NCBI GenBank assembly: GCA_021818905.1 | Contig: JAKASS010000015.1 | Coordinates: 1-22,767 of the forward strand | Length of the DNA stretch: 22,767 nucleotides | Direction: 5' to 3' | DNA from: Nanobdellota archaeon | GTDB taxonomy: Archaea; Nanobdellota; Nanobdellia; Parvarchaeales; Parvarchaeaceae | Shown here: positions 2,954 to 22,339 of the stretch, one piece after another | Position numbering within the stretch: the stretch's first letter is position 1 | Layout of the letters: every line of letters begins with the position of its first letter | The notes under the pieces: model-generated | The model's input: the letters and a program-made list of their open reading frames with translations, nothing else | Told to the model about the DNA's origin: nothing | Databases searched by the model: none | Position numbers and translations under genes: made by a program

Positions 2954-3044
2954 CTTTGTTTTTGTCCCGAAACCCCATCTGGGGCACTGGCCGCCTTTAA
3001 TTATACGATTCTTAAAGCTTTAACATCGAGAATATTAGCTAGTT

Positions 3045-3359
3045 GCCTAGAGAGAAAGCATCCCCCCGTCACCGATGGCACCGTACTATTCAATGAACGT
3101 GAAGTGATGCGTTACTACCAGAAGAAATGGAAGGAAAAGGTCGGTTATGGCAGAAGATGGCTGGTAGAATCCTTCTTTTCCGCCTTCAAGCGGAGGTTCG
3201 GAGAGCACGTATGCTCCCGAAGATGGAAGTCTGTGCAGAACGAGCTCAAGCTGAAGGCGATGCTTTACAATAGACTGATCGGCTGAAGCGCCAGCAGAGA
3301 GAAGATCCGAACGAATCGGACAGACTTAGGCTTATTTAAGGGACTTATGCACAAGTGTA
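3045..3359 (+). mobile_element. IS5-family element remnant, copy 2 (5'-truncated)
   Basis: Only the last third of the element is present. Homology to copies 1 and 3 starts near 3045 and runs to the right terminal repeat ACTTATGCACAAGTGTA (3343-3359). No left terminal repeat is seen between the hyperacidic protein gene and 3045. It has the same orientation as copy 1, so the two form direct repeats around the GH15-like and hyperacidic protein genes. Confidence 0.75.
3047..3286 (+). pseudogene. IS5-family transposase, C-terminal fragment (copy 2)
   Basis: The fragment starts around LERKHPPV and carries the catalytic-Glu block intact: YGRRWLVESFFSAFKRRFGE, that is Y(2)R(3)E(6)K, ending RLIG at TGA 3284-3286. 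Both catalytic Asp residues are missing, so it cannot act alone. The first 25-30 codons are clearly diverged from copy 1, while the stretch from about 3125 to the end is nearly identical to it, a mosaic pattern. The open frame extends upstream to about 2858, but that part is antisense to the hyperacidic protein gene and is not transposase. Confidence 0.75.
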
Positions 3360-5031: not shown

Positions 5032-5661
5032 ATGGTAAAAGCAATCGCATTTGACTTGGATGGCACATTGATAGATAGTACAGATGTCCTGATAGAAGCC
5101 GAAGTGAAGGCGTTCACAATAAAAGGTGCGGTCGTAACTCATTCTGAATTAAAAAACCATGGTAGCACATCTATAAAGGATCTTGCAAAAGCAATTTTAA
5201 AGAGGACGGATGACGAAAGCATAAAGGAACTAAGAGAATTAAGAAAAGAAGAAGTGATGAAAAACTTGGATAAAATAGAAGTTTTCCCAGATACGCTACC
5301 AACTTTAAAGAAACTTAAGAAAAAGGGCATAAAAATGGGGATAGCAACAGGTTTGGGAAGAGATTTATTGCCAGTTTTTCTTAAAAAGACAGGCATAGAT
5401 TTATATTTAAGTACTTTTGTAAGCGCAGATGACGTGAAACTAGGAAAGCCATTTCCAGATGTTTTCTTGAGGGCATTTGAGCTTATGAACGTAAAAACAC
5501 AAGACGGGCTTGTGGTAGGCGATAGCAGAAACGATATCAGAGCAGCAAAGGCAGCGAAAATGCCAAGCGTTTTAATCGCAAGGAACGGGCTTTTTGTCTG
5601 CAAGGCAGACTACGTGATAACTAATCTAAAAGAGCTTATTGAACTTTCAAACAGGATTTAA
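5032..5661 (+). CDS. HAD-superfamily hydrolase (phosphoglycolate phosphatase-like)
   Basis: This 209-residue protein is a HAD phosphatase with all four motifs. Motif I is FDLDGTLIDS with nucleophile D8 and acid/base D10. Motif II is T106 in IATGLGR, motif III is K139 in KLGKP, and motif IV is GDSRND (163-168). The alpha-helical insert after motif I (about 16-85) is a C1-type cap, as in phosphoglycolate phosphatase and beta-phosphoglucomutase. The substrate is not predictable. The open frame extends upstream to 4906, but that part overlaps tyrS antisense, and the TATA-like box near 5009 points to ATG 5032. It converges with the aminotransferase gene, their stop codons sharing bases at 5658-5661. 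Confidence 0.85.
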   Translation: MVKAIAFDLDGTLIDSTDVLIEAEVKAFTIKGAVVTHSELKNHGSTSIKDLAKAILKRTDDESIKELRELRKEEVMKNLDKIEVFPDTLPTLKKLKKKGIKMGIATGLGRDLLPVFLKKTGIDLYLSTFVSADDVKLGKPFPDVFLRAFELMNVKTQDGLVVGDSRNDIRAAKAAKMPSVLIARNGLFVCKADYVITNLKELIELSNRI

Positions 5662-12628: not shown

Positions 12629-12940
12629 TCACTTTTGATTTGGTCTATTAGAATTTCTAATGTATACATTCCTTAATTTCAAAATATGCTTGCAAGGATT
12701 ACCAAAAAACTCATAGGCCTCGCAATCGCAATTACCATAAATCAGGTTTTTAGACGACGGTTCGTATTCTGCGCTAACCCTATGAAAGGCCCCAGACCTA
12801 GATTCACTTTCGACATAGCCTAAAATATCAAGTTTTCGGCCGATAGAGGTAAGTCCATAGATCTTCACGTCTTTTTCTTTCGACTCTATTATTGGGTCTT
12901 CTACTAGTTCTTCAAGTTTTAAAAAATGTCGAGTTTCCAT
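12629..12940 (-). CDS. Small stand-alone SWIM zinc-finger protein
   Basis: This protein of 103 residues has a C-terminal C-x-C-x(9)-C-x-H motif: C71 and C73 in GNCDCEAYEFFG, then C83 and H85 in NPCKHILKL. That is the SWIM finger, a zinc-binding module for DNA or protein contacts. The N-terminal 70 residues read as a small beta-rich segment preceding the finger (KIYGLTSIGRKLDILGYVESES), and no second domain is present. In archaea, short SWIM proteins occur as solitary genes of unknown role, and the family is associated with recombination partners such as Sws1/Shu2 in eukaryotes; that role is not shown here. It converges on the MFS gene with no gap between stops. Confidence 0.7.
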   Translation of the reverse strand: METRHFLKLEELVEDPIIESKEKDVKIYGLTSIGRKLDILGYVESESRSGAFHRVSAEYEPSSKNLIYGNCDCEAYEFFGNPCKHILKLRNVYIRNSNRPNQK

Positions 12941-12979
12941 TTATTTACAGACTATTTTTATCCCCCGGCATTTAAAAAT

Positions 12980-12990
12980 CTTATAAATAT
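12980..12990 (+). promoter_or_regulatory. TATA-like box of the broken DUF981-like gene
   Basis: CTTATAAATAT is centred near 12985 and predicts transcription from about 13011. That lies just downstream of the ATT at 13007 and upstream of the in-frame GTG at 13031. A start at the frame's ATG 12926 would be upstream of the promoter. Confidence 0.45.
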
Positions 12991-13030
12991 AGATAAGCAC
13001 CGTCTAATTACGGTTTTCGTAGATGAGCTT

Positions 13031-13204
13031 GTGTATTACCTATTCGTTCTCGCCTTTGCCGGGTTTCTTTTAGCTTACATGATGTCTGAGATGTATCTAG
13101 CTTATCGGAAGGGCAAGATGGACATTCACGCGCGCTTAGAGTCGTTATCCGTTCCTTTGATATTTTTAGGAGGTTATCTTCTAGTGACTGGCGTTATATC
13201 GTAG
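13031..13204 (+). CDS. N-terminal piece of the DUF981-like membrane protein
   Basis: If translated separately from GTG 13031 this gives 57 residues: two hydrophobic helices (YYLFVLAFAGFLLAYMM and SVPLIFLGGYLLVTGV) around a charged loop (YRKGKMDIHARLES), ending at TAG 13202. The frame is open further upstream to ATG 12926, but that part overlaps the SWIM gene and lies before the TATA box. Confidence 0.4.
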   Translation: MYYLFVLAFAGFLLAYMMSEMYLAYRKGKMDIHARLESLSVPLIFLGGYLLVTGVIS

Positions 13205-13216
13205 GTACTATGGTTC

Positions 13217-13543
13217 TTGCCAGGCTCTTATAATATACTTTACTATGATCCAATCTTAGCATCGGGTTTGTTGTTAGTTGCCTTTTCCGTTTCAATAAGA
13301 TTAAAAGCAAAAACACAATATGTAGGTTTTCTTGCATTACTTTTTGGAGCGATGACGATATGGTATGGAATCTCAGCTTATAATCTTGGACTATCAACTG
13401 CTCCGCCCGAGGTGTTAGGTTTATTTGGGCTTTTTAGCTTAGCCGGCATATTAGCTTATCCAGCTACATGGATAGTCGATAATTTCCTTAAGCCCAATAC
13501 AAAGATGCCATATTTATGGAACTTTTGGCTTGCGACGCTATGA
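13217..13543 (+). CDS. Central piece of the DUF981-like membrane protein
   Basis: From a TTG at 13217 this frame encodes 108 residues with about three TM segments (DPILASGLLLVAFSVSI, VGFLALLFGAMTIWYGI, VLGLFGLFSLAGILAYPA). It has no TATA box or ribosome-binding site of its own and is in the same frame as the preceding piece. Separate translation is unlikely without read-through of the TAG. Confidence 0.4.
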   Translation: MPGSYNILYYDPILASGLLLVAFSVSIRLKAKTQYVGFLALLFGAMTIWYGISAYNLGLSTAPPEVLGLFGLFSLAGILAYPATWIVDNFLKPNTKMPYLWNFWLATL

Positions 13544-13636
13544 TTCTATTGATACTTGCAAGTATATGCGCATTTTATATGGGGCTTGCGGCGCTACCAA
13601 GACACCTTGCAGCACCACCTTAGATGCAATTCTAAC

Positions 13637-13668: not shown

Positions 13669-14142
13669 ATGAAGCGACTAGAGGAAAGTCTTCAAGAGCG
13701 ATATGCTCCGAATAGCATTTGTTTTGGATGCGGTCCCAAGAATAAAAACGGTTTTAGAATCCAAAGCATAGTAAAAGGCGATATCATAGTAGCAGATTTT
13801 AAGCCAAAAAAATATTATCATGCATTCAGAGGATATCTAAGCGGCGGCGCAATATCGGTCGTTATGGACTGCCACAGCAATTGGTCTGCGGCTTACTACA
13901 TAATGAAAAATCGTGGAGAAGATAAGATTCCTCCAACTGTAACTGCCCAATATACCGTTACTTTCCTTAAGCCTACGCCAATGGGAATAAAACTACAGCT
14001 TAAAGCGAAGTGTATAAACGTTTACACCAATAAAGCCGAGATAGAAACAGAACTTATAGCAAATGGCGAAGTAACCGCCAAGGCAATCGGGATTTTTGTT
14101 GCTGTTAAAGAGGGACATCCCGCTTATAACAGGTGGAATTAA
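13669..14142 (+). CDS. Hotdog-fold thioesterase, PaaI-like
   Basis: The 157-residue protein begins with CFGCGPKNKNGFRI (18-31), the N-terminal signature of PaaI-type hotdog thioesterases, which usually carry the form CFGCG-x-N-x-x-G-L. The hotdog helix follows in YLSGGAISVVMDCHSNWSAA, with a catalytic-region Asp. The later strands include TVTFLKPTPMG, typical of the family. Members hydrolyse acyl-CoA thioesters. The substrate cannot be read, but it ends only three bases before the methylisocitrate-lyase-like gene, so the two are co-transcribed and it may release CoA from an acyl-CoA of the same pathway. No membrane segment; cytoplasmic. Confidence 0.75.
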   Translation: MKRLEESLQERYAPNSICFGCGPKNKNGFRIQSIVKGDIIVADFKPKKYYHAFRGYLSGGAISVVMDCHSNWSAAYYIMKNRGEDKIPPTVTAQYTVTFLKPTPMGIKLQLKAKCINVYTNKAEIETELIANGEVTAKAIGIFVAVKEGHPAYNRWN

Positions 14143-21368: not shown

Positions 21369-21402
21369 GGGATCGATAAGAAGTGGAAGTGGGGGCGATC
21401 CC
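21369..21402 (+). promoter_or_regulatory. Hairpin upstream of IS transposase start (copy 3)
   Basis: GGGATCG (21369-21375) pairs with CGATCCC (21396-21402) around a 20-base purine-rich loop. The hairpin ends 19 bases before ATG 21422. Copy 1 has a hairpin at the same place whose outer base pairs differ but still match, which suggests the structure is maintained. Confidence 0.5.
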
Positions 21403-21410
21403 GTCTACAA

Positions 21411-21424
21411 CGAGGTATCGTATG
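21411..21424 (+). promoter_or_regulatory. Shine-Dalgarno site of the copy 3 transposase
   Basis: GAGGT (21412-21416) stands five bases before ATG 21422. It favours this start over the upstream ATG at 21383, which falls inside the hairpin loop. Confidence 0.55.
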
Positions 21425-22339
21425 AAAAAGGATCGTCGCCTCCAGAAATGTGAGGCAGTGATAGGTAATATAGTCGACTGGAAGCAAAATGAGCGCCCCG
21501 CGCTCATCGAGATGAACGAGGACAAGGAAGGGAGGCCTTTCCTTTATTCGGACGAACTCATCACAAAGATAAGCTTCTTGAGGTCCATGTCCTGCGACAA
21601 GCTTATCCCGACCGAAGCTCTGGTAAGGAGGCTTTACGGCAGCTCTCCAGACCATACCACGATAAGCAGGAGGCTTTATAGATTGGACGTCAAATGGACT
21701 ATCGACAGGAAACGCAGGAAAGGAAGGCTTTTGGCGATAGACGCCACGGGGATGTCCGTCTGCCGTACTGGAAGCTACAGGCATTCAAAGTACGGGGGGG
21801 CGCCAAGGTTCTACAAACTGCACGCTTTGTTCGACCCAGATACCAAAGAGATCGTGGACTTAAGGGTCACAAAAGACCGCTGCCATGACAATAGGAAGTT
21901 CGGTCCTATGATCAGGGAAGCCGCAAGCAGGGGAGATACCATCTACGCCGACGGAGCCTATGATGCAAAGGAGAACTTTGACTATCTCTCAAGGAACGGC
22001 ATCAGAAGCGGCATAAAGATAAGGAGGAACTTCTCCACCAAGGCTGGAGGGAGCTACGCCAGGCAGAAAGCCGTGATGGAGCAGTTCGGGATATCGACTG
22101 TGCGTCTTAAGGGAAGGCTCCATTTCCTGCCTACCGAAGGGGTCGTCTTCGACAAGATAGGATACTACCAGCAAAAATGGAAGGAAAAGGTGGGATACGG
22201 GAAAAGATGGCTGGTAGAATCCTTCTTCTCCGCCTTCAAACGCCGCTTCGGAGAGCACGTATGCTCCCGAAGGTGGAAGTCCGTGCAGAACGAGCTCAAG
22301 CTGAAGGCGATGCTTTACAATAAGCTTCTCAAAACGTAA
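21422..22339 (+). CDS. IS5-family DDE transposase (intact)
   Basis: 305 residues from the Shine-Dalgarno-selected ATG. The DDE triad is D107 in LLAIDATG, D177 in YADGAYD and E266 in WLVESFF. The signature Y259-x2-R262-x3-E266-x6-K273 is complete, typical of IS4/IS5-type transposases. The N-terminal 100 residues (EGRPFLYSDELITKISFLRS and following) form the DNA-binding part. The basic tail KRRFGEHVCSRRWKSVQNEL matches copies 1 and 2 almost exactly, while the first 250 residues are clearly diverged from copy 1. It catalyses cut-and-paste or related movement of the element. Confidence 0.92.
   Translation: MKKDRRLQKCEAVIGNIVDWKQNERPALIEMNEDKEGRPFLYSDELITKISFLRSMSCDKLIPTEALVRRLYGSSPDHTTISRRLYRLDVKWTIDRKRRKGRLLAIDATGMSVCRTGSYRHSKYGGAPRFYKLHALFDPDTKEIVDLRVTKDRCHDNRKFGPMIREAASRGDTIYADGAYDAKENFDYLSRNGIRSGIKIRRNFSTKAGGSYARQKAVMEQFGISTVRLKGRLHFLPTEGVVFDKIGYYQQKWKEKVGYGKRWLVESFFSAFKRRFGEHVCSRRWKSVQNELKLKAMLYNKLLKT

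Follow-up and report, generated by a model that had tools for sequence, protein, structure and literature searches.

Three described systems resemble parts of the locus reported here. Ordinary pseudogenes of reduced, IS-rich prokaryotic genomes are dispensable genes with multiple disabling lesions each, whose relatives are intact and which share their genome with further decayed genes; all of these features recur here and no difference was found. Pyrrolysine recoding also involves an in-frame TAG in an archaeal gene. UreI and SatP possess related six-helix channel folds, which the model of an intact protein of the family under study may resemble. This family, DUF981 (Pfam PF06168), is almost restricted to one archaeal family among the 327 genomes of the phylum searched, and a search of the available papers recovered none on it.

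The window, i.e. the whole stretch of 22,767 nucleotides analysed here, is the entire contig 10 of a genome that comprises 944,665 bases on 25 contigs and has a completeness rating of 100%. Of the relatives bearing a name, the two nearest that were recovered are Micrarchaeota MAGs. One DDE transposase family is present in three copies in the window, at 207-1159, 2990-3280 and 21383-22339: one copy is frameshifted near its end, one is a C-terminal fragment and one is of full length. Genome-wide this family has about 19 matching stretches, comprising whole and partial copies, some of them at contig ends.

The DUF981 gene and its three lesions

The DUF981 gene of the window is located on the forward strand at 13010-13623 and is the sole copy in its genome according to a profile search. 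The first-pass annotation had read this region as a single DUF981 gene interrupted by two lesions, a TAG in frame and a shift to the -1 frame, and the Pfam search with the joined frames bears this out. The joined translation matches the profile with 119.9 bits (E 1.7e-34) over positions 9-185 of 186, spanning both junctions, whereas the first and middle fragments reach 19.3 and 73.7 bits singly, and a translation read through the TAG alone 105.8 bits. Since the joined score exceeds those of the single fragments, joining brings genuine signal and the single-gene reading stands. Family membership was defined by the gathering cut-off of 29 bits and coverage of most of the model; the joined translation lies well within both and retains the motifs LPG-YNIL-YDP and YVGFLALL. 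The single intact frame of its relatives is lacking in the window copy, which has lost its start codon and contains an in-frame TAG and a frame break.

The most upstream lesion affects the start codon, where ACG (13010-13012) replaces the ATG of the relatives in the syntenic alignment. This ATG is present in all 25 relatives read, directly 5' of a conserved F-(V/T/I/M)-D, so that the remnant properly begins at 13010. Its loss agrees with the earlier remark that a TATA box remains without an in-frame ATG behind it, which already hinted at a third lesion. The putative TATA-like stretch (12971-12990, forward strand), proposed from its sequence and from archaeal promoter spacing, is retained about 20-40 bases 5' of the lost start. 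Another in-frame ATG occurs at 12926, but is improbable as a start because it lies 5' of the TATA-like stretch and inside the start of the SWIM gene on the opposite strand.

The next lesion is the in-frame TAG at 13202-13204 (forward strand), a position at which all seven closest relatives encode Gln. The same frame is open on either side of it, as had been noted, is DUF981-like after the stop and closes at TGA 13541-13543. At 13540-13543 (forward strand) the alignment reveals the -1 frame break, in a Trp codon that is kept in six of the seven closest relatives and is Cys in L027. The ATGA overlap at 13540 is a by-product of this break. Beyond it, the final stretch MILLILASICAFYMGLAALPRHLAAPP in the -1 frame forms the family-like C-terminus and extends up to TAG 13621-13623.

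Relatives and synteny

Besides the window genome, 31 genomes of its archaeal family were searched; 27 of them contain DUF981 above the cut-off, without any internal stop in the match, and among these family genomes such a stop is confined to the window copy. The homologues are single intact ORFs, not the separate short proteins that would have spoken against one gene. No DUF981 was detected in G021, G026, G028 and G031, many genomes being incomplete drafts so that loss is not implied; the SWIM homologue of G026 is not syntenic with the window locus. A partial second DUF981 in G017 was considered as another broken gene and rejected, as it is cut by the contig end. Viral contigs and plasmids yielded no DUF981 relatives.

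Two relatives, G024 and G012, carry an intact DUF981 gene at the same place, within the conserved order MFS-SWIM-DUF981-PaaI-ICL-ComA-PrpD-M1-AT. The window gene shows one mark of a pseudogene, disabling lesions alongside an intact same-place orthologue in relatives. Its upstream neighbour is a SWIM zinc-finger gene (12629-12940, reverse strand, Pfam PF04434) with 79% identity to G024 and 83% to G012; downstream follows a gene (13669-14142, forward strand) without Pfam match, PaaI thioesterase-like by eye, with 85% and 88% identity, respectively. Both are intact and syntenic, and the neighbours that could be aligned are free of lesions, in agreement with the initial impression. Identity of the window to G024 and G012 is mostly 74-89% for the neighbours and 53-58% for DUF981. 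In the same syntenic block, the HAD-phosphatase of G024 (L094:3139-3551) looks frameshifted and truncated, and the window copy, ending at 5661, is intact; different genes would thus have been lost in the two lineages.

Alternative readings of the lesions

Gene death, recoding and error had all been offered as readings, and the tests favour the first: the window DUF981 is very probably a recently inactivated gene, and its case is one of ordinary gene loss, not of a novel reading of the genetic code. Sequencing or assembly error in an intact gene would suit a draft genome of 25 contigs and a DUF981 copy that otherwise looks conserved, but is unlikely given three lesions, i.e. two substitutions and one frame break, in 614 bases against zero in the aligned neighbours. 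The frame break lies outside any homopolymer, and under a Poisson distribution, with some 10 lesions counted roughly by hand across 517 genes, 0.0006 genes would be expected to carry three or more. Other broken genes of this genome, moreover, mostly carry two lesions apiece. A comparison of 517 G024 genes with the window genome produced 29 automatic broken-gene flags, many of which are artefacts (over-extended starts, spurious antisense ORFs), and only hand-checked genes are cited here. At least three such genes elsewhere in the genome are decayed: a peroxiredoxin (G000:C20:44419-44855, reverse strand; lost start and frameshift), a ferredoxin-reductase-like gene (G000:C5:83659-84435; two frame shifts) and a TPR protein gene (G000:C18:26806-27184, reverse strand; frameshift and stops). 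Together with the transposase copies, these multi-lesion genes fit erosion better than scattered error. Separately, G000:C8:18577-20013 (reverse strand) matches the G024 ORF D19_4006_5430 as separate segments that are spread over two frames and differ in their order, and to judge from these matches possibly represents a rearranged or decayed gene.

Synthesis of the full protein in this DPANN archaeon by starting at ACG, reading through the UAG and shifting to the -1 frame is highly improbable, despite the family-like coding sequence on both sides and the retained TATA-like stretch, since three separate rare events would be required in one gene. Across the 327 genomes of the phylum, internal stops are absent from every other above-cut-off DUF981, and a heptameric slippery site at 13540 was not seen by eye. 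The suggested check for pylS and pylT is clear for the former: only weak, generic synthetase-like matches of 21.9 and 19.5 bits were obtained for PylS, against a family cut-off of 178. For the latter, none of the 39 tRNAs found has a CUA anticodon, in a detection that also missed the expected His, Cys and Asn tRNAs. (TIGR02912 was set aside as a PylS family, being a sulfite reductase model.) The locus further differs from pyrrolysine recoding in its additional lesions and in homologues with Gln instead of TAG. TAG is the stop of 141 out of 733 ORFs of at least 150 residues, and 80 of the 82 TAG-ending genes compared stop where the G024 homologue ends, the two exceptions being the window DUF981 and a helicase fragment. 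A genome-wide UAG-as-sense code, doubted from the beginning, is rejected on these counts. Equally far-fetched are two or three short proteins from separate ORFs at 12926-13204, 13217-13543 and 13540-13623. Every fragment is open and ATGA at 13540 would permit coupling, but none of the 27 family genomes with an above-cut-off homologue displays this organisation, the middle ORF could start only with a TTG within a conserved motif, and the last product would have just 27 residues. In-frame TAGs in such genomes should accordingly not be taken as recoding.

Age of the probable decay and predicted fold

For the favoured reading as a recent pseudogene, the ancestral locus would have encoded a membrane protein of the DUF981 family with six helices and about 203 residues. 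Damage to the start codon, to a mid-gene codon and to the frame before the last helix would then have struck the window lineage, so that the full protein could no longer be made; decay has so far spared most of the coding sequence and the promoter-like stretch. Judged from the lesions, the locus probably yields no functional product, and we infer that the loss followed relaxed selection in a transposon-rich genome. The species concerned, whose genome is already tiny, would have lost a gene that 27 of the 31 other family genomes sampled still possess.

Three-taxon branches of DUF981 are 0.36 for the window, 0.32 for G024 and 0.44 for G012, compared with about 0.04-0.19 for the neighbours. DUF981 evolves fast in each of these lineages, with no acceleration so far visible in the window copy, a point against gene death which requires the decay to be young. 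Dating by dN/dS was attempted and met saturated dS. A simple simulation of neutral change accumulates three disabling lesions after a median of 10-30 substitutions, by which time 1.6-4.3 of 42 family-invariant columns are altered on average. The window copy has one missense change in these columns (P(<=1) of 0.17-0.55, depending on the assumed indel share), which fits the simulation; the loss is therefore recent, and conservation is no argument for function.

The AlphaFold2 model of an intact relative (L031:9794-10405), calculated from a three-sequence alignment (pLDDT 77.5, pTM 0.70), contains six long helices and a short one. Foldseek returns nothing under E 0.001 for this model, the best match being a urea channel (0.019). 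VIA-align ranks UreI (6nsj; Z 15.5, 2.8 A over 168) and SatP (5ys3; Z 15.1, 2.9 A over 167) at the top, with Z values barely over the level usual for helical bundles. At the thresholds used, sequence profiles give no match between DUF981 and the solved UreI and SatP chains or Pfam AmiS_UreI. As a lead, the modelled protein may resemble the six-helix channels of UreI and SatP; if this hint is true, a small-solute channel would be the first functional guess for DUF981.
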